A program made the position numbers and the translations under genes. From Planctomycetaceae bacterium (GTDB lineage Bacteria > Planctomycetota > Planctomycetia > Pirellulales > Pirellulaceae), in NCBI GenBank assembly GCA_005798335.1, contig SYJV01000148.1, positions 1-64,000 of the forward strand: a stretch of 64,000 nucleotides of DNA, given 5' to 3'. Shown one piece after another: positions 3,960 to 38,999 of the stretch; positions within the stretch are counted from its first letter, which is position 1, and the number at the start of each line of letters is the position of its first letter. Under the pieces are notes generated by a model that saw only the letters and a list, made by a program, of their open reading frames with translations, made no database searches and was not told the origin of the DNA.

Positions 3960-4204
3960 CCGGTCAGCGCGCGAATCCCACCGGCTTGCCCGGTGGATCG
4001 TTAGGCTTCAAGCTACCCCGACATCGCACGTCCCAATGATAGACCGGTCACTCTTGGTCGCAGGCGCGGCTATCAAGCAAAACAAAGAACGCGTTGCAAC
4101 ATCGTCATCGATCTTGCAACGCGTCATTTGTGTACGTGTCCATTTAGTGACACTCAAGGAAGTGCGCGGTGGTGAACCGTGGCCGGGTTTTTCCACCTAC
4201 CATG

Positions 4205-4534
4205 CTAGAACACGTCAAGAATGAAATGGTGGCCGGAGTGGTAGCGTCGATTGCTGGGATATTCGTTATGCCACTGCCGGTTATAAACCGGAATCTGCAT
4301 TTCTGCGGGATAACGATGGTAAAGGCTGTCGCTGCTGCGATAGTACTCGTTGCCCTTGAAGTTCTGTGGGTAGAAAACGTATGGGTAGTGATAGAATCGC
4401 TGAACATCGCGATTGCTGCTCGCTCCACCCCAAACGCGTCCGTAGGCTCGTGGGTCTGCCGCGTCGGACGAATTGATGCATGATCCAAGCAAGCTGGCGA
4501 TGGCCAAAAGGCTGAGAATTGTCTTGCGCAACAT
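4205..4534 (-). CDS. Small secreted Tyr/His/Arg-rich protein
   Basis: 109-aa ORF with hydrophobic signal (MLRKTILSLLAIASLLGSC) and Y/H/R-rich mature part. Confidence 0.6.
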   Translation of the reverse strand: MLRKTILSLLAIASLLGSCINSSDAADPRAYGRVWGGASSNRDVQRFYHYPYVFYPQNFKGNEYYRSSDSLYHRYPAEMQIPVYNRQWHNEYPSNRRYHSGHHFILDVF

Positions 4535-4840
4535 GATCTTGAACTATTCCCCTGGGAAATTTCTTCGAATTACCGGCTGCGGATAGCCGATACTCAGTTT
4601 TTTCGGTGAAGTCCAACCCGAGCGAGCCCTGTTAGGCTGCTTGCGCTCGCCGTGTTACTCTAAAAATCGGCCATCGCAAACGTGGAGTTGAAGGAATATT
4701 CCACACAAACCGCAAGACCATCTGTGGCCGGGTAGATCGGTACAGTGGGTAGACTTTGCCGACCAACATAAAAAGACACTGAATTGAAACAGCCGAGTGC
4801 GCAGATATTAAGCGGCCTTCCATTTTCATTCGGAGGCTGC

Positions 4841-5205
4841 GTCATGGGATTCGTCGCTTTTCGCTTATTAGAGAATCCATGTGAGTACAGGGTCCGCGAA
4901 CTGACCGGTCGATGTCAAGGTATCTCGATGGACCACCGCCTCAGTCAGCTACGGAGCTATGTGCGTGGATCGATGGGGTACTTTGGTTTGGCTTCTCAAT
5001 TGGAACTGTTTGACCGGCTTGATCAGTGGCTTCGTCGGCGCATTCGCATGTGCTATTGGAAACAATGGCGCAGACTGAAACGCCGCCGCGAGATGCTCAT
5101 TCAGTTGGGCGTACCACGACGTCAAGCCATTCGCCATGCGCGTAGTCGCAAAGGCCCTTGGCATATGGCCAAGACCATCACCAAAAAATGCATTACTCGG
5201 AACTG
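4841..5205 (+). pseudogene. Group II intron-encoded reverse transcriptase/maturase, C-terminal fragment
   Basis: RELTGRCQGISMDHRLSQLRSYVRGSMGYFGLA..FDRLDQWLRRRIRMCYWKQWRRLKRRREMLIQLGVPRRQAIRHARSRKGPWHMAKT matches the maturase C-terminal region; no RT palm domain upstream. Confidence 0.85.
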
Positions 5206-5267
5206 CGGAGGAGCGTTTTCTTTTCGTACTGTGCGGGGATAGAAATGACTGGGTCAAACACCTGTGC

Positions 5268-7734: not shown

Positions 7735-8054
7735 TCTTTCGCTAGCACTGCGATCCCAACGCTAGCACGAACATCGATTGGTAATGTATCAAATCTCAGC
7801 GCTCGCAGATTGGTAAGGTGCGCCGAAAATTGGGAAAGCACCGAAGGCAACGAATGTTCGCCCCCACTTAGTGCCGACAATCCATTCAGCGGAGACTAGT
7901 TGAATGTTTTCTGCGTCGAAGTTATCTGCCTGGGCAGGTTGACAGAAGGTGGCAGCAACTGAACTCAGCGTCTATCCGGAGCAAGCCTGCTTGCTAGCGT
8001 TCTGAGAATCCTATTCACGATTGCTAGCTCGGAAACCCTACACGGAGGTAGGAA

Positions 8055-11000
8055 GTGCGACAACTGACCATTCTCGTCGTCGGACTGATGCTCATCTTTT
8101 GCTGGGCTACATTGATACGAACCCTGCGCAATCAATCGGTACGAAATGAACATTCTCAGGTGCCTGAAGTTGTTCGTGAACCGCAACGCATTGCTTCTCT
8201 GCCAGCCCGAGAATTGCGGGATGCGGTGACTAGCTCTAACTCCGGCGAATTCGCGTTCCATTACGACCACGATTCCCAAAGCGATATCAATCAAGTCGTT
8301 ACGGCCGGTGCATTCGAAATCGATTCAACAACCGCTATCATCGACGCCGCTGACGCAAAGGACCCATGGGTCTGGAAGAAGCCGATTTGGAACTCAGGTA
8401 TCTGGCTGAGATCCAATAAAATCAAGACTCAAATGACCGTAGGCAACGGGACGTACAAGACCACCGTGGCAATTCCAGGGGCACCAGTGGTTGTTGTCGA
8501 TTCAGTGACAGTCACCAGTGGCAGCATTGAGGTTGCAGTTGACAACTTACCGGCCGGAGAGTCTTGGGTTGATCTCAAATTGAACCAGAGTCCAAAGGAA
8601 TTCGCCGTTTCCGTTTCGAGGTCTCAAATACCGGATTCTTTCCATGTCCATGTTCCTAACCCGTCAAACGCTCCGGCGAAGTCGACTGTAAACAGATCGC
8701 GATTGGGTTTGACGTATCCCTGGACTCCCCATGCTTCATCGATCAATTTGTTTCGCAACGTCACAACCACTGTGGGATTTGAGGCAATTCCGGCGAATAC
8801 TAGAGATCGATTTCACGTACTTGCTGTCGAAAAACAGGGTGGAAAATTTGAAGTCATCAGTAGCCATGAGCCTCCGATGACCGAGTTGAGCAACGGTCAA
8901 GACTTGGCGCGGCGGTTTGACGTCCCGCTCGTTCAAGAAAGCGAAGGTCGCCTGCGAGAGAATATGTATGTGGCAATCATCTCGATACGGCAATTGTCAA
9001 CTGGTTCTGCCAATCACATCGTGGGAGATCCTACTACTTTCGCGTTCCCGACAGCTCCACCTCCTAGTTCCGGTTTGTCAATCAGCGAAGTGTATGGCGC
9101 AGCCGTTACTCCCGCGACTGCGCTGAGAACGACTCAGCGCAGTCAAGACAAATCTTTGAAATTGACGCACTCCGTAACCAGCGCGAAAACTGCCATCAAT
9201 TTGTTCAACAGCGAAAGCCCAATCGGCGATCCGATTGAGACTTCGGTGAGCCCCATCACCGTACCCAGGATCGAACTCAATGAAGGTGAAAATCGGCTCT
9301 TTGCCCAAATGTTTGCTGGAGATGAAAAAGTAGGAACCACCAGCGCAATCGTTCCCGTTGAAGTTCGTACTGACGGATTCGAGGTGACTCGCGTCGAACC
9401 GCTCGACCTGGGCGTTCGACTGGGCGCCACTCAGTTGTTGATCACTTTTTCACGAGCGTTAAAGGTTGATGACACAATAATTAGTAGGTGGAAAGCGAAT
9501 AATGGCGTGAACGCGCCTTTTCGAATCAGCTACTCTGCAAACGCGCGATTTGACGGCGATCTGACGACTGAGCAGCTCCCCAATATCGAAGCCGAAGATG
9601 GTGGCAAGGCGATTCGGCTGACGGTAGCTGGCCCGAAACCAGGTGGCTACCAACTGAGAATTACTGGCGAGGCGCTCACCGACTATTACGGCAACAAACT
9701 CACCGCGGGTGGCGGCATACCCGGCGGAATCTACGTCAAAGAATTGGGAGGCGCCGACGGCCGCCAAAGGGCTGACTTCACCGTCACGCCTGGAGTCAAT
9801 CGCAGTGACGCACCGTTGGTCGAATTTCCCGAGTTCGTCGAACCGCGCAATTCCAGCAAAGGTTTCAATCCCAGTGATAAAGTGGAAACGCGAGTCGCTC
9901 GACTCTACTTCTATCGCGACGCGCATCGCGTTGCACAAATTCTCAATCGCAAAGTGCAGTCCTATAATCGGCAGGATGTCACGCTCAGGCACCAACAAGC
10001 GGACAAAGCCCGTCAGGAGGCTGAATCGCTGACTACCAATCGACAGATCGCCGAGCGCGAAGCCGTCACAGCGGCTCAGCGCACGCGAGAACTGGAGAAT
10101 CAGCTTAGCGATACACAGCGATCATTGAATTCAACTTTACAGCAGATTCAACTGGCTGCTGCGCAACAAGTGGACCCAGGCACTACCGCGGCTCAACAAA
10201 AGACTGATACGCTCAATAAACTGCAAAGTGCCGCACAGAGTTTTGCTAATCAGGCCAGCCAACTGGAAACGCAAATTCGTTCCGCCCGCGAAACCGAAGT
10301 GGCATCGAACGAACGTTGGCAACAGGCCCAGCGCAAGGAAGAACTCGCTCGCGCTGATCAGTTTCGACTCGAGACTGCGGCGGCTCATGCCGACCCCGAT
10401 ACGTTTGTGCCGGGAAATCCTCGCAGTATCGATCCGGTGGCTCAAGCGAGCATCTCGGTAATCGGAGAGGGCCTGCTACATCTGCGCGGTCCGCTGAAAG
10501 GCGTGAATCAACTGCGATTGATGGTCGACCAGATAGATTCACCTCAAGGGCAAGTGCGTATCAACGTCCATTCGACGCAAATCAACGGCGACGAGGCGGA
10601 CAAGTTGGAGGTGGTTGCCAATCGAATTCAAACTTACATCGATCAAGCGAGATTTCTGACCGTGCAATCGGGCGAAATGCTGCGTAAAGCGGTAGTTCAC
10701 GTGGCCGCAGCCCGCGCGGAAGATGCGCGAGGTCTCTATCCAGGCGCTTCGCAAGCCGAACGCGATCAACTTTACTTGCATGCATTTTTTGGACGTGATT
10801 TTGTTGCCGAACTGCAGACGATCGATTCGGAATTTCTCCACACAGGCAACAAACTGCTGTCGTTGCATTCGATGGACGTTACCAGTTTGTCCAGCGCCTT
10901 AACCATGCTGGCACTGGCCAACAACGGCACTCGGCTGGCGATTTTACAAGAATTTCAACGTTTGCTGCAAAGCGATCTTTCCATTGCGGAACAAGAGTAC

Positions 11001-28630: not shown

Positions 28631-31213
28631 ATGTCCGATCCGTTTCTGGTTCACCAACGTGTTTTGCAATTGATGACGACGGGCGATGTACGCCGTTATC
28701 TACACCCTGACTTTTTCCGCACGCGCCGATTATCGGGTGGCCAAGTGGAGAATGTCGATGCTGGAAACTGGGAGGCGGTGACGCGCGACACGTTGTTGCA
28801 AAAATTGAACGGAACCGATGGCACCGCGGCTAGACTCGTCCTCACGACGGACGCGGGAGTCGGCAAATCGGAAAACTTGTGCTGGCTGGAAAAGGAGTTG
28901 CTAACTCGGTGCCGAAGTCGCCAATCGTTCTTAATAAAACTGGGCGATCTGGCGGAGAAATTGGCTGGAAGGGAATTGTCGGCGGATCAGTTTCTCGAAA
29001 CGGTATTGACTCCTATCATGTTAGCGCGCGATTCGTCCAATACGATCGGCAACGCGACCGAACTCTTGCCGCGTCAAGTCACCAACTATCTTCGGCGGCT
29101 AGCGCTGTCGGGAAGATTGACTCTGCTGTTTGATGAACTCGACCAGGTACACCCTGCCAGCCCCGCAGTCCGAACTCTGCTCAACGTTGTGACGAGCCTT
29201 GCTAGGTTACCGATCGCGGTTGGTGGCAGGCCGTATGCGCTGCAAGATTGCTGGGAGAAGCTGTTTGCGAGCGGAGATTGGCAGTTTTTCCAGTTCGAGG
29301 GCTTTACGACTCAGCAACAGCGAACTTACTTGCGGGACCAAGACGGTCATGACAGGTACGAAGACTTACCCGAGGAAACGAAAACCGAATTACAGGATAT
29401 TCTGACGATCCCACGTGTGCTCAGTTATCTTCGAAAGCTCGATCGCCAGGACTTCGAATCGATTCACACGCCAAGCGATATCTATGAACGCGCGATCTAC
29501 CACTTGGTGGAATTCGGGCTGAAGAAAGTTAAAGCCTGCGAATTGGGAAGAACTGCGATTGTTTCGCAGGAATCTACTCAGTTGAACATATCGATCGATG
29601 GCTCCCAGGTCCGACAAGCCATCCGAATTCTCAGCGCCTTGGCTTGGGAAATGCTTTGGGTGCCCGAGCCCAATACGCCTGGGCGGATCGCCGAGCCAAG
29701 TGCGCACGCTATGGCTCCCAATTTCAATCGAATTCAGGGTGCCAGCGCCATCGACAAATTGAATCGCGCTGCGTTCGAGCGGCTGAAGAACCCGTACTTC
29801 GGCGATAGCGGATACAGCACATTCGAAAATGCAGTCGAGCGGTTGAAGTCGATGAATGAAGCCATCGAACAAGGTATCGTTGATTCGAAACGGATGGAGC
29901 AGATTCTGTGGCGCAACCGATCGCTACAAGAATTTCTGGCCGCGCGCGAGATTTGCTGGCACTGTACCGACGCGGATGTCGATCGACTGTGGCAATGGGT
30001 GCATCTGCATCATGACGCGCGAACTGATGCCTTTTATTGGATCTGGCGGTTCGCGGCGGAAATGTCCGACACGGAGATCGACCAGTCGGCTTGGGCCAAG
30101 GCAATGTCACCGCTCTACCGTGTCGGGGATGGGACTGCCGAGGGGACCAAACGCTCTAGCGAGATGCTATATCGCACATGGCCCCGGATGCAGGACAATG
30201 GCGTACCGTACGTCGAACAATTCCTATCCGAGTTCCAATCCGTCGTTGACGGCCATCAAGGCGACCGGCGCCAGTCTGGCGCACGCCACTTTCAAACGAT
30301 GTTCGCGCCGGTGCCCGCCGAACCGCGCTTTCGAATGGGCTCTCCAGATCACCAACAGGGCTTGCCCGACGACGAACGTGAGCGATGGGCACAATACCTG
30401 CGTTCCATCGTTGACGCGGAAGCCTATGCCAACGAGCGAGCAGACAAAGCCGGATATGTGCCAGGACCGCGCGGCGACGCCAATCGACAGTGGCTGCGCG
30501 ACAAATGGTTATCGATACTCCGTGGTGGAGGAATTGAAGAATTGGAGGCTTGGTGGTACGCAAAAGATGAAACGCCGCGCAAGGACTGGAAGGATGACTT
30601 GGCTAGCTTTCAGTTGAATCGATATCCGACGCTGCGAAGCTGGTACGAACTGTTCGATCCCGGACATGGCGATGGGAATCGCTGGTTCCACGCCGATCTG
30701 GGCAAACGCGCGCCTTCCGGCGACCATCCCGTGCTGTACGTCAACTGGTACGATGTCTGGGCATTTTGCACTTGGGCGTATTGGAATGGCCAAAGTTGTC
30801 GATTACCGCATGAAGACGAATGGGAGAAGGCGGCCAAGGCAGGCACGCGTTGGGATTGGGGATACTGGTGGGGAGACGAGGATGATCCGGAGAAACGCAC
30901 GGCGAACCTTAACATCAATCAAGGACATACTTCCAAGCCTGTGGATTTTGACACACTCAGTACAGGGCACCATCAGGGAAACCATACCAATCCCCTGACG
31001 TTCGTCGATATGCTTGGTAACCAATTGGAATGGACGGCTGACGCGTACAGTCCGCAATACCGGCGGGAGCATCGGTATCATGCAGCCTCGCGTGTTTGCC
31101 GTGGCGGGGCGTGGTTCTACAATCCAAGGGATGTCCGTTCTGCGTACCGTAGTGGCGGTCATCCCCCGTTCTTGCGCCTCTACGTAGGTTTTCGTGTGGC
31201 CAGGGCTTCTTAA
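28631..31213 (+). CDS. NACHT-like STAND NTPase with C-terminal FGE-sulfatase/C-type-lectin-fold domain; DGR target protein 1
   Basis: P-loop LTTDAGVGKSEN, Walker B LTLLFDELDQ; C-terminus YVNWYDVWAFCTWAYWNGQSCRLPHEDEWEKAAKAG...FVDMLGNQLEWTADAY...SRVCRGGAW...GFRVARAS; ATG at 28631 in ORF 28436..31213. Confidence 0.9.
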   Translation: MSDPFLVHQRVLQLMTTGDVRRYLHPDFFRTRRLSGGQVENVDAGNWEAVTRDTLLQKLNGTDGTAARLVLTTDAGVGKSENLCWLEKELLTRCRSRQSFLIKLGDLAEKLAGRELSADQFLETVLTPIMLARDSSNTIGNATELLPRQVTNYLRRLALSGRLTLLFDELDQVHPASPAVRTLLNVVTSLARLPIAVGGRPYALQDCWEKLFASGDWQFFQFEGFTTQQQRTYLRDQDGHDRYEDLPEETKTELQDILTIPRVLSYLRKLDRQDFESIHTPSDIYERAIYHLVEFGLKKVKACELGRTAIVSQESTQLNISIDGSQVRQAIRILSALAWEMLWVPEPNTPGRIAEPSAHAMAPNFNRIQGASAIDKLNRAAFERLKNPYFGDSGYSTFENAVERLKSMNEAIEQGIVDSKRMEQILWRNRSLQEFLAAREICWHCTDADVDRLWQWVHLHHDARTDAFYWIWRFAAEMSDTEIDQSAWAKAMSPLYRVGDGTAEGTKRSSEMLYRTWPRMQDNGVPYVEQFLSEFQSVVDGHQGDRRQSGARHFQTMFAPVPAEPRFRMGSPDHQQGLPDDERERWAQYLRSIVDAEAYANERADKAGYVPGPRGDANRQWLRDKWLSILRGGGIEELEAWWYAKDETPRKDWKDDLASFQLNRYPTLRSWYELFDPGHGDGNRWFHADLGKRAPSGDHPVLYVNWYDVWAFCTWAYWNGQSCRLPHEDEWEKAAKAGTRWDWGYWWGDEDDPEKRTANLNINQGHTSKPVDFDTLSTGHHQGNHTNPLTFVDMLGNQLEWTADAYSPQYRREHRYHAASRVCRGGAWFYNPRDVRSAYRSGGHPPFLRLYVGFRVARAS
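31083..31203 (+). repeat. DGR variable repeat VR1
   Basis: 121 bp aligned ungapped to TR 31420-31540; 18 differences, all at TR adenines. Confidence 0.97.
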
Positions 31214-31281
31214 ACCCTTTCCCCTTTTCTTCCCTTTCTTCTGTCTTTCTCAGCCCGCGAAGCGGGCGCGCGATATTTGGA
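31204..31281 (+). promoter_or_regulatory. DGR initiation-of-mutagenic-homing (IMH)-like block downstream of VR1 with pyrimidine tract and hairpin
   Basis: GGCTTCTTAAACCCTTTCCCCTTTTCTTCCCTTTCTTCTGTCTTTC..GCCCGCGAAGCGGGCGCG; hairpin 31253-31267; same block downstream of VR2. Confidence 0.8.
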
Positions 31282-31419: not shown

Positions 31420-31540
31420 CAGCCTCGCGTGTTTGCCGTGGCGGGGCGTGGAACAACAATCCAAGGAATGTCCGTTCTGCGAACCGTAATGACAATCATC
31501 CCACGAACTTGAACAACAACATAGGTTTTCGTGTGGCCAG
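31420..31540 (+). repeat. DGR template repeat TR
   Basis: 121-bp near-copy of both VRs with AAY-rich variable codons (would translate [36 protein letters not shown]). Confidence 0.97.
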
Positions 31541-31555
31541 TGCTTTGCGATGTAG

Positions 31556-31798
31556 GGTGTTCCGTTTCTGGGTTATCGAATCTTTCCCTCCCGCTGCCTG
31601 CTGCAAAAGCAAAACATAGCTCGCTTTCGGCGTCGTATGAGATTTGCACAGGAACAGTTTCAAAACGGGAAGTCAGATACCAATGACATCAGGCAGCAAA
31701 TTCGCAGTTGGCTGGGACATGTCTCGCACACGCAAAGCCATGAACTGGTGGCCCGCACCCTTGATAAAGTTACTTTCACGCGAGGATCGATTCGATGA
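31556..31798 (+). pseudogene. DGR reverse transcriptase, C-terminal (thumb) remnant
   Basis: Frame after TAG 31553: [80 protein letters not shown]; typical DGR-RT C-terminus; palm with YxDD missing. Confidence 0.88.
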
Positions 31799-31825: not shown

Positions 31826-31903
31826 TCCAGAAATATCGCGCCCGCTTCGCGGGCTTGGAAAGACAGAAGAAAGGGAAGAAAAGGGGAAAGGGTTTAAGAA
31901 GCC
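31826..31903 (-). promoter_or_regulatory. IMH-like block downstream of VR2 with hairpin
   Basis: Minus-strand copy of the VR1 downstream block; hairpin 31840-31854. Confidence 0.8.
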
Positions 31904-34398
31904 CTGGCCACACGAAAACCTAGGTAGGTGTCCAAGAGCGTGGGAGGATGGCCAAGACGGTACGCAGAACGGACAGACCTCGGAAGGTAGTACCACGCCC
32001 CGCCACGGCAAACACGCGAGGCTGACGTGCGCGGCATCGATTGCCCCAATGTTTCCCGTGGGTCATCCGTGTAGGAATTGGAACACCATTCCTCTACGTT
32101 GCCGTAGATATCATGCAAGCCCCAACCGTTGGCTGCTAATTCGCCAACTTTTCGGGTGTAGCCTTTTTTCCAATCTTGCCCGAAATTCGCCACTTTGGCC
32201 AGCGCAGCTCGAACTTCATCGAGATTGGACTGGTCAGAGCAACAAAAACGGATACTCTGCGTGCCAGCCCGAGCCGCGAATTCCCATTCCAGCTCATGCG
32301 GCAGACGATAGATCTTGCGATGGATCCCATCTCCAGAATCTCTCGGACCGGTCAACCAACGGCAAAACATCACTGCTTGAAACCAATTGACATCAACCAC
32401 TGGATGCTGGTCCAGTTCGCCTACGTCGTTGACACGATCTTGGAATGATCGAAAGTGCTTGGGCTCGAACAGTTCGTACTGCTCGCTAGTCACTGGCGTG
32501 CGCGCCAATTCAAAGGGCGCAGCCAACTGTACATTGCGCTGTGTCTCGTCTCTCCACACACTCACCGTTGGGTTGTTCTCCTGGTCTGGATTAGAACCCG
32601 ATACAAACTTGAGATCGTCTGGTCCGCTGTATTGTGGCGGAATGGGTACAAAATCGCCCACCAATCGATGGGCGATGCTTCGGCAATTTTCGCCTTGAGT
32701 GCCTCGTAGAATCTCGCCTGAGAATTCCGCACAAAACTGGCGAAGCGTTTCCCGGGCGACCAGCGAATGCACGGGCAAGTTGCGAGGATTGGCTACATGG
32801 TAGGCCGCCAGCGATTCCATCAGGTCCCAACTGCGAAACAACATTTCACACGAACGCAGGCCAAGTTCTGGCCGTGGGGCGTACAGCGGCGCCAAAGCGC
32901 GAACCCAGTTCAGCGACGTGCGATGTTCCTTGGGCATCTCGGCCAAGAACCGCCACACTCGATACAGATGGTCGTCGTTCAATTCGTCATGTCCCGGCAA
33001 CCAAGGCGTTCGGCCAAATCGGGCGCAGTCCTCCGGCTCCGAGTGCTTGGCCAGATATCTCGCCACGAAAAACTCATGCAACGTCGGATCGCGAAAGTAG
33101 ATATCTGTCAATTGGTCTTCGATGTCCAGAAAGCAGTACTCCAACAACGAATTGGTTTCCCCGACTGTCACCAGTGCTTGATGCAGATCATCCACGGACG
33201 CAAACCGCAGCGCGGCCCCACGTTGCGTGAACAGGCGATGTTCGAAGTCGTACAATTCTCCTTCCGCGACACCCTCCCAGTTCTTTTCGTCAAACATTTG
33301 CATCGCCACTGCAGACAACAGGTGCAGACCACGTTCTTTCCAGTTGCCCCTCTGTGCGCCATCGACGGCGGATTGTCCTGCCGTTCGATCGACTGCCGCA
33401 TCCTCACTCCAAACGTGATCGATCACCGCCGCGTACAGTTCGCTGGGCGAATGGAGATCGTCCAAACGCACTTCGGGCAAGCGCTGCACCGCTTCTAACA
33501 TTCGCGGGTTTTCGAGCGATTCAGTGTCGAGCGAATTCAACTTGTCGAATTTCCACTTACCAAGATACGCGCGGCGTTGTCCTTCCTCGGTAAAGCCCTG
33601 CATCTGCGCGAATCGCCAGTTGCCGTTTTCGAACAAGTCCTTCCAATGCCGCCTGACCGAATGGGGTCGTCCCGCCACGACGGCTCGGCATTGCCCCGCG
33701 GTCTCGTTGAGAAACTTGCCCAGGGCCACGATCTTAGGATGATGTTTGTTGCCAACCTCACGATCGTGAGTCTGATCGAGACCGTCGATCAAGAAAGTCA
33801 CGCTGCCCGACGCGACCATGCGCCGGAGATAGTTGACGATGCGCGCATCGAGCCGTTCTCTCTCCGCCTTGCTCAATTCGCCTGGAAACTGAGAAGCTCG
33901 TAGGATTTCCAAGCACGGCCCCGAGAGAAAATCGTCCTTCGAAGTCGGCAAATCCTTCATCTGCAAGTACAGCCACAGATGGCGTCCCGACGAGTGTAGA
34001 GCAGTTGTCCCCAACTGCTTGTTCGAGTCCTCATTGTTCGCATCCAGAGCGCCTCCAAGAAACGCTTCAGCCCATTTCAACGTCGTCGTCTTGCCGATAC
34101 CGCCGTCGATTGTCAAGCACAATCGATGCAGTGAAGCGTCGGCGAACAGAGCTTCGCGCGTGGTCGCTTGCCAGCGATCCATCCAACGTTGGTAACCGTC
34201 CGCGAACCTCTCCAGGCCAGTCTCGCGCTGGTCTGGCTGGTCCTTCTTTCGTCGCTTCTCCAGCGCAATCCAGCGCGCTATGCGAAATGCCTCGGGTTTG
34301 AGGAACTCCTCCGCGCTAACACCATCGTCGAGCAACAAGAATTCCTGCGAACGGATAAACGGCAGCGGCTTTTCCATGGTCCTCGAACAGTCTCGCAC
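31894..34398 (-). CDS. NACHT-like STAND NTPase with C-terminal FGE-sulfatase/C-type-lectin-fold domain; DGR target protein 2
   Basis: P-loop LTIDGGIGKTTT, Walker B VTFLIDGLDQ; C-terminus [64 protein letters not shown]. Confidence 0.9.
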   Translation of the reverse strand: MRDCSRTMEKPLPFIRSQEFLLLDDGVSAEEFLKPEAFRIARWIALEKRRKKDQPDQRETGLERFADGYQRWMDRWQATTREALFADASLHRLCLTIDGGIGKTTTLKWAEAFLGGALDANNEDSNKQLGTTALHSSGRHLWLYLQMKDLPTSKDDFLSGPCLEILRASQFPGELSKAERERLDARIVNYLRRMVASGSVTFLIDGLDQTHDREVGNKHHPKIVALGKFLNETAGQCRAVVAGRPHSVRRHWKDLFENGNWRFAQMQGFTEEGQRRAYLGKWKFDKLNSLDTESLENPRMLEAVQRLPEVRLDDLHSPSELYAAVIDHVWSEDAAVDRTAGQSAVDGAQRGNWKERGLHLLSAVAMQMFDEKNWEGVAEGELYDFEHRLFTQRGAALRFASVDDLHQALVTVGETNSLLEYCFLDIEDQLTDIYFRDPTLHEFFVARYLAKHSEPEDCARFGRTPWLPGHDELNDDHLYRVWRFLAEMPKEHRTSLNWVRALAPLYAPRPELGLRSCEMLFRSWDLMESLAAYHVANPRNLPVHSLVARETLRQFCAEFSGEILRGTQGENCRSIAHRLVGDFVPIPPQYSGPDDLKFVSGSNPDQENNPTVSVWRDETQRNVQLAAPFELARTPVTSEQYELFEPKHFRSFQDRVNDVGELDQHPVVDVNWFQAVMFCRWLTGPRDSGDGIHRKIYRLPHELEWEFAARAGTQSIRFCCSDQSNLDEVRAALAKVANFGQDWKKGYTRKVGELAANGWGLHDIYGNVEEWCSNSYTDDPRETLGQSMPRTSASRVCRGGAWYYLPRSVRSAYRLGHPPTLLDTYLGFRVARAS
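31904..32024 (-). repeat. DGR variable repeat VR2
   Basis: 121 bp aligned ungapped to TR; 19 differences, all at TR adenines. Confidence 0.97.
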
Positions 34399-34490: not shown

Positions 34491-34610
34491 AATACCGTTC
34501 AACGAACGTGGGATAAGCTTCCAGCTTGTCAATATCTTGTGTAAGCAATGGCGAAACTCCGCTACAGGTTGACAAGCTGGAAGCTTATCCCACGTTCGTT
34601 GAACGGTATT
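34491..34610. repeat. Perfect 42-bp inverted repeat upstream of target gene 2
   Basis: AATACCGTTCAACGAACGTGGGATAAGCTTCCAGCTTGTCAA (34491-34532) and its exact reverse complement 34569-34610; 36-nt loop. Confidence 0.95.
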
Positions 34611-37631: not shown

Positions 37632-38999
37632 TTACGGCGATGAATTTATTCCACACCACTTGCATTCGGGCAGGCCGCTCACAGCACGGTCAGCCACGAG
37701 GAGTCCATCGGGACGCCAATCTACGCGACTCCAACGGCTGGTCGTTGAACGGCCCGTCAGGGTATCGATCAGGTGCTGAATGCCGATCGATACGGTGATC
37801 GCGTTCAAGGTGACCAACGAGCCGGCTCGCTGTTGGCGAAAGTCGATCGACGGTCGGATGGGGCGAACGCCCGGCGGCAATCGCAGTTCGAGTTCGGCAT
37901 CCTCTCGATCCGCAATCCCTCCCACGCATGCAGCGCACCCTTGGCGTGGCAGGAACAGTCGCACGTCACCAGACATCGTAAGTTCACCGCTTTCCGTGCG
38001 CTGAACGCTCGTACCGATATCCAAGTGAATCTTGTTCCAGCAATTTGCCAACTGCGCGGCCAGCAATACTGGCGTTCCGTGATCGACACAGGTAACCAGC
38101 ACGTCGGCGTTCTGAGCTCGCTCAGCCACTCTTAAATCGGTAGCGGTACTTGGGATACCCGTGACGGCAATATCATCGCAATACCGCGTGATTTCGTTGG
38201 CCAGCGCAGAGACCTTCTTATTGCCAATATCTCCCAAGTCGCCACCGAGCATCGCGTCGAAGTTGTGGATTTCCAGCACGTCGGGATCCACGAGCGTCAG
38301 TTTTCCAATTCCCAATGTCGCCAATTGGCGAGCCGCTACCGATCCGTTACGCGAGGCGCCGATTACCATCACGTGCATATCACGCAAAGACTCGACAAAC
38401 TTCGATCCCAGCATATTGGTCAGTCGGCTCCACCGGGCTGGGATTTTGGAAGGCGTTTGTGGATCGTTGATGGGCGAATTCCTCAAAAGAAGATAGGGGC
38501 CTCCCGCAATCTTTAGAGTGCCAATTGGAGACACGTCAGTGCCGTGAAACAACCACGCGCGCCACTGGCCTCGCCGATTACCGAATCCAAAGCTCAATAC
38601 CACCCACGATTGCCCCGGAAGCGGCAAAAAGATTTCTCGCAATTCCTTTTCGGAGCGATAGGGTGTATCGTCCGAACCACCAACCGCCACTATCCAATTC
38701 GCATTCAACGGTCGCTCGATGCCCAACGGAACCTTTACAGTGCGGGTCATGCCACCAACGGAAAGGCGAAAGGTATCATGCACAAATCGTTTGACCAATC
38801 GGCCGACCATTACCGCATCAGGATTCATCGCCAGTGTGCGCACGACGTTAGCAAAATCTACGCGAGCTATTTCCAACACGGTTTGATCCGAATATGCGAC
38901 CACGTGAGCGACTCTCCGATGAAATCGAAACAGGAATGGAACACTACTGACTAAAAGGCGTATGCGGAACGAGTGCCGAATTCCGTAAAAAGATGTCAT
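37632..38999 (-). CDS. E1-like ThiF/MoeB/HesA-family adenylyltransferase
   Basis: VMVIGASRNGSVAARQLATLGIGKLTLVDPDVLEIHNFDAMLGGDLGDIGNKKVSALANEI, ADVLVTCVDH, CAACVGG and CKWCG Cys pairs. Confidence 0.85.
   Translation of the reverse strand: MTSFYGIRHSFRIRLLVSSVPFLFRFHRRVAHVVAYSDQTVLEIARVDFANVVRTLAMNPDAVMVGRLVKRFVHDTFRLSVGGMTRTVKVPLGIERPLNANWIVAVGGSDDTPYRSEKELREIFLPLPGQSWVVLSFGFGNRRGQWRAWLFHGTDVSPIGTLKIAGGPYLLLRNSPINDPQTPSKIPARWSRLTNMLGSKFVESLRDMHVMVIGASRNGSVAARQLATLGIGKLTLVDPDVLEIHNFDAMLGGDLGDIGNKKVSALANEITRYCDDIAVTGIPSTATDLRVAERAQNADVLVTCVDHGTPVLLAAQLANCWNKIHLDIGTSVQRTESGELTMSGDVRLFLPRQGCAACVGGIADREDAELELRLPPGVRPIRPSIDFRQQRAGSLVTLNAITVSIGIQHLIDTLTGRSTTSRWSRVDWRPDGLLVADRAVSGLPECKWCGINSSP

Follow-up and report, generated by a model that had tools for sequence, protein, structure and literature searches.

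Here, we describe a diversity-generating retroelement (DGR) locus in a planctomycete genome in which the reverse transcriptase (RT) is reduced to its C-terminal end, and in which the template repeat (TR) and two variable repeats (VRs) are well preserved. The locus lies near the middle of a 64,000-nt stretch of DNA, which we analysed in full (the window). A recent natural deletion probably left this DGR inactivated, with two frozen, convergent NACHT-FGE receptors.

TR and VRs

The two target genes are convergent, and each ends in a VR (Table 1). VR1 is a direct repeat of the TR, and VR2 is inverted. The TR differs from VR1 at 19 positions (18 of them TR adenines) and from VR2 at 20 (19 of them TR adenines). 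The sole non-adenine difference, a T to G at 31541 near the 3' end, is common to both VRs and may be a boundary difference of the IMH/IMH* type, and the remaining 94 non-adenine positions show no difference from the TR in either VR. Because the TR and VRs agree at all non-adenine positions bar this one shared base, the loss of the RT appears to be recent. With 18 and 19 of the 31 TR adenines changed, the two receptors had already been diversified, just as the first-pass annotation of this DNA had claimed. A genome-wide search with the TR returned the TR itself and its two VRs, and nothing else. The VRs are followed by ~73-nt flanks that carry the post-VR hairpins and are near-identical on the two sides.

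Table 1. Features of the DGR locus, with positions in the window.
Feature	Position	Strand	Basis
Target gene 1, NACHT-like NTPase with C-terminal FGE (C-type-lectin fold) domain	28631..31213	+	PF03781, E 3.6e-26; NACHT, E 9e-4 (below the Pfam cut-off); start is the first in-frame ATG, a guess
VR1, 3' end of target gene 1; 18/31 TR adenines changed	31083..31208	+	Self-alignment
Hairpin GCCCGCGAAGCGGGC downstream of VR1	31253..31267	+	Sequence; inside an inverted repeat (199 nt) formed with the VR2 side
TR, 31 adenines	31420..31545	+	Self-alignment; mismatches to VRs at A (one exception, 31541)
Putative deletion junction between TR and RT remnant, with in-frame TAG at 31553-31555	31546..31555	+	Sequence; comparison with an intact TR-first locus (L102)
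DGR RT C-terminal remnant (motif 7 and thumb) with natural stop	31556..31798	+	phrog_1423, family HMM, hhalign, start-codon scan
Same hairpin GCCCGCGAAGCGGGC downstream of VR2	31840..31854	-	Sequence; inverted repeat
Target gene 2, NACHT-like NTPase with C-terminal FGE domain	31894..34398	-	PF03781, E 2.4e-37; NACHT, E 0.003 (below the Pfam cut-off)
VR2, 3' end of target gene 2; 19/31 TR adenines changed	31899..32024	-	Self-alignment

RT remnant

Between the TR and target gene 2 lies an open segment of 80 residues (stop at 31796-31798), which retains ~77 of the ~355 residues of a DGR RT. The phrog_1423 "Reverse transcriptase" profile matches this segment at profile positions 367-442 (E 1.4e-15). 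Our own model (length 354), based on six intact DGR RTs from this bacterial family, aligns with it over positions 276-352 of 354 (E 2.5e-23), and hhalign pairs it with the C terminus of intact family RTs at 99.4% probability and 45% identity. Both motif 7 (FLGY) and the basic patch (RFRRRMR) typical of DGR RTs are found in the remnant, and the catalytic palm, the (I/V/L)GxxxSQ (SQ) motif and YxDD are missing from it. These matches uphold the earlier identification of a DGR-RT C terminus without the YxDD-bearing palm; the reading frame, translation, in-frame TAG and stop also agree with those first given. The remnant had been described as the thumb only: the thumb is indeed there, together with motif 7, and the "only" falls.

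Pfam and NCBIfam searches yielded no RT match for the remnant, in our view because those models span the palm and not the C terminus. A related RT profile (A1) has as its best solved-structure match by sequence 8ub7, whose chain is named "Reverse transcriptase" (E 3.8e-76). The C-terminal profile score of the remnant is 94 bits, compared with 110-132 in its closest clade, and the RTs of the other compared lineages score lower than the remnant. A score this near to that of its own clade suggests little or no strong decay.

The start-codon scan found no ATG, GTG or TTG in the remnant frame before 31637 (residue 28). Thus, translation from the usual start codons could not yield the full 80 residues and, judged by its sequence, the complete segment does not amount to a normal coding gene. 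No further RT pieces were found in the window with the six-RT model. A phylogenetic placement of the remnant was dropped, as partial sequences grouped together at low support.

Junction and proposed deletion

The gap between TR and remnant, first put at ~15 bp, is in fact 10 nt when counted from the last TR/VR-homologous base (31545). At the same place, L102 carries a 176-nt spacer and the RT N terminus. With ~279 codons missing and a spacer of this length, about 1 kb would have been lost. Among 23 sequences compared, the 90 nt after the TR of the window show the weakest folding (MFE -16.4, z +1.95). A stable hairpin occupies this position in many relatives, and a AGTCCAGA-like motif, spotted by eye after the TR in relatives, was not found beside the TR of the window.

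We propose that the intact ancestor was arranged as VR1, TR, RT and inverted VR2. Judging from the function of the DGR family, it would have reverse-transcribed the TR into cDNA, placing random bases at adenine positions, and rewritten the C-type-lectin ends of the receptors. A deletion of ~1 kb, covering the TR-RT spacer and RT codons 1-279, would then have spared the TR, the VRs and the RT C terminus. Any remaining RT product would be unable to polymerise. As the remnant has neither a palm nor a proper start, diversification would have come to an end, probably leaving both receptors frozen. An internal deletion of most of the RT and of the TR-RT spacer had been proposed from the first reading of this DNA, and finds support in the remnant, the well-preserved TR and the two diversified receptors.

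Gene order among relatives

Intact RTs of relatives are about 355 residues long, and Avd is found in most of the relatives checked. The intact RTs that most resemble the remnant have the TR on their downstream side in every locus with a readable order (L041, L042, L049, L159 and L160), so a single deletion needs a TR-first ancestor. The order of DGR components varies (PMC3521204), and TR-first relatives do occur (L102 and L177). L102, which has an intact RT, is arranged as VR(+)-Avd-TR-RT plus an inverted VR; this is the same layout as that of the inferred ancestor. No close intact relative of the locus was found among other genomes of the same genus or in wider searches, and searches of viral and GTDB contigs recovered relatives of neither the remnant nor target gene 1.

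A comparable locus, L053 (G051:C23, about 7840-9300), occurs in the same bacterial family. Here too, convergent FGE targets and hairpins surround an RT C-terminal remnant, which spans model positions 277-351 (276-352 in the window) and so begins at almost the same codon. L053 differs in that its remnant is more diverged (30 bits versus 81 for the window) and its TR is cut to a ~24-nt 5' piece. This TR-like piece lies upstream of the RT remnant, equals the VR 5' end bar a 2-nt insertion, and joins the RT sequence at a 9-nt microhomology, GTTCGGTTC. These sequence features support a TR-first design in the group and deletion as the likely mechanism. The near-identical right boundary, seen in only two cases, may be due to chance.

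Search for an RT or Avd elsewhere in the genome

The assembly comprises 8.46 Mb in 558 contigs and is 97.5% complete. RVT_1 and A1 profile searches of it found no intact DGR RT elsewhere. Ranking by sequence and HMM assigned the matches to group II introns, an RT-Cas1-type protein, a retron-like RT and a second DGR RT fragment; the full-genome search envisaged in the first-pass annotation thus recovered a fragment only. This second remnant (L054, G000:C194:1-6262) is again C-terminal (4085-4201); after it come, at about 4275-4400, a TR-like sequence rich in AAC, for which the genome yielded no VR, and a hairpin. A MITE-like palindrome adjoins the L054 fragment, and a related sequence lies near position 34500 of the window.

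There is no Avd match in the window. An Avd-like match on another contig (C499) was rejected, since this four-helix-bundle protein looks by eye like a member of a different family; the only other match in the genome was weaker and partial. Weak matches on C546 and C472 were set aside for want of RT-model support.

Alternative explanations

The RT might be intact in nature, the gap being an assembly collapse or a join of strain variants that left the missing ~1 kb in a small unbinned contig. The fragmentation of the assembly would fit this explanation, as would the TR and VRs, which are near-identical repeats and have the pristine pattern expected of an active DGR; furthermore, RT-intact and RT-deleted variants coexist in another bacterium (PMC10907252). 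However, no repeat capable of causing a collapse is seen at 31546-31556, the missing part of the RT is on no contig of the assembly, and the comparable deletion in L053 lies on a 215-kb contig. We regard an artefact of assembly or strain mixture as rather unlikely.

A second alternative is that the cassette is non-autonomous and still alive, its TR being copied in trans by an RT from elsewhere in the cell. Again, the pristine TR and VRs would be expected, action in trans has been proposed for Thiohalocapsa (PMC10907252), and three of the compared genomes (G101, G060 and G645) combine a truncated-RT DGR that has a pristine TR/VR pair with an intact DGR RT. Against this, the genome yielded neither an intact DGR RT nor Avd, and the structured post-TR sequence of many relatives is absent. 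Given an assembly that lacks 2.5% of the genome, we consider copying in trans unlikely, and by our estimate decidedly so. The first-pass annotation had offered frozen receptors and dependence on an RT in trans as options; the lack of an intact DGR RT, Avd or other TR match in the assembly favours the former.

Recurrent RT truncation

The compared genomes commonly hold truncated DGR RTs that do not lie at a contig end. The C terminus is kept in about ten loci including the window (L045, L046, L047, L050, L052, L053, L054, L123 and L167), N-terminal parts are kept in L096, L104 and L125, and the RT of L044 has an internal deletion. Some of these truncations may be assembly faults. Pristine TR/VR pairs are found in the truncated-RT loci L047, L123 and L167, whose genomes hold another, intact DGR RT. 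As several truncated loci came from a C-terminal query, their total is no fair test of bias. A whole-RT query returned five C-terminal remnants plus the window, compared with three N-terminal ones; with no clear bias, these counts lend no support to selective retention of the C terminus, an idea that we set aside.

It is conceivable that twin-receptor DGRs of this family repeatedly lose the first ~280 RT codons and keep the TR, the VRs and the RT C terminus, either because it is advantageous to shut off a DGR that has a useful receptor pair or because the cassettes persist as non-autonomous elements via RTs in trans; we hold this to be very unlikely. That the C-terminal segment was purposely kept, whether as a protein that binds RNA or as an element of RNA itself, seems far-fetched: it does have an unbroken frame with the natural stop and a high profile score, and L053 preserves nearly the same segment, but usual start codons are missing from its first part, the whole-RT query counts are close, and recency by itself accounts for the intact frame.

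Several truncated loci show rearrangements of their own. In L050 (G034:C943, 698-1085), a VR-like target end is immediately followed by the start of an Avd gene that continues in frame into RT residues 251-356, a further case of internal deletion in a DGR. In L045 (G068:C67, 7000-8175), a Ser/Thr kinase-like sequence is fused in frame upstream of the RT C terminus, which may reflect rearrangement or a chimeric assembly. L104 (G178:C23, 3200-4328), from a genome of the same genus, has an N-terminal DGR RT fragment that runs into integrase-like sequence. We also considered that an RT had been retrocopied via DGR reverse transcription. Mismatches between L043 and L044, the closest intact/broken pair, affect all four bases and do not favour adenines, and the idea was rejected for that pair.

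Relation to known DGRs

In the prototype DGR of Bordetella phage BPP-1, the components are ordered VR-TR-RT, TR-to-VR mutagenesis is specific to adenines, and a hairpin follows the VR. The window shares all three features. It differs from BPP-1, which has a full RT and Avd, in that both are missing and the two convergent targets are cellular.

Inactivated RTs beside VR/TR pairs with adenine-only differences have been reported from Ruminococcus gnavus, Acaryochloris marina and Bacteroides sp. 9_1_42FAA in the DiGReF survey of 2012, whose authors read this combination as very recent inactivation (PMC3521204). The window resembles these cases in its broken RT gene and in TR/VR changes confined almost wholly to adenines. 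The DiGReF genes had been interrupted by a stop, a frameshift or an insertion element; here, a deletion appears to have taken out the TR-RT spacer together with most of the gene.

In Thiohalocapsa PB-PSB1, RT-intact and RT-disrupted or RT-deleted variants of DGR 3 and DGR 7 coexist in one population, and a DGR lineage with paired STAND/NACHT and C-type-lectin targets has been described (2024, PMC10907252). The window has such paired targets. Transposons or MITEs are implicated in Thiohalocapsa, whereas none is seen at the junction here and no RT-intact variant is known.

The locus thus belongs to an already known class of inactivated DGRs and is largely an ordinary case; the mode of breakage, a large deletion sparing motif 7 and the thumb, is a detail and not a new principle. 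Its value is that it would show a receptor diversification system soon after the loss of its mutator, while the unmutated template still sits next to both receptor versions. With loci of this kind, one can test whether discarding the RT is a way for bacteria to fix useful receptor variants, and our survey points to RT truncation with surviving TR and VRs as recurrent.

Genomic neighbourhood

The first-pass annotation had recognised no RT-like or Avd-like ORF in the window besides a group II intron fragment at 4.9 kb, and the six-RT model and the Avd search agree. The fragment itself (4784-5242, + strand) does match the C terminus of a group II intron maturase, if weakly (E 9e-4), and is probably an intron remnant. 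Near the DGR, at 37632-38999 (- strand), lies a gene for an E1/ThiF-like protein that is matched by PADLOC E1-E2 models (best E 2.5e-18). The neighbourhood of the DGR may be a conflict system.
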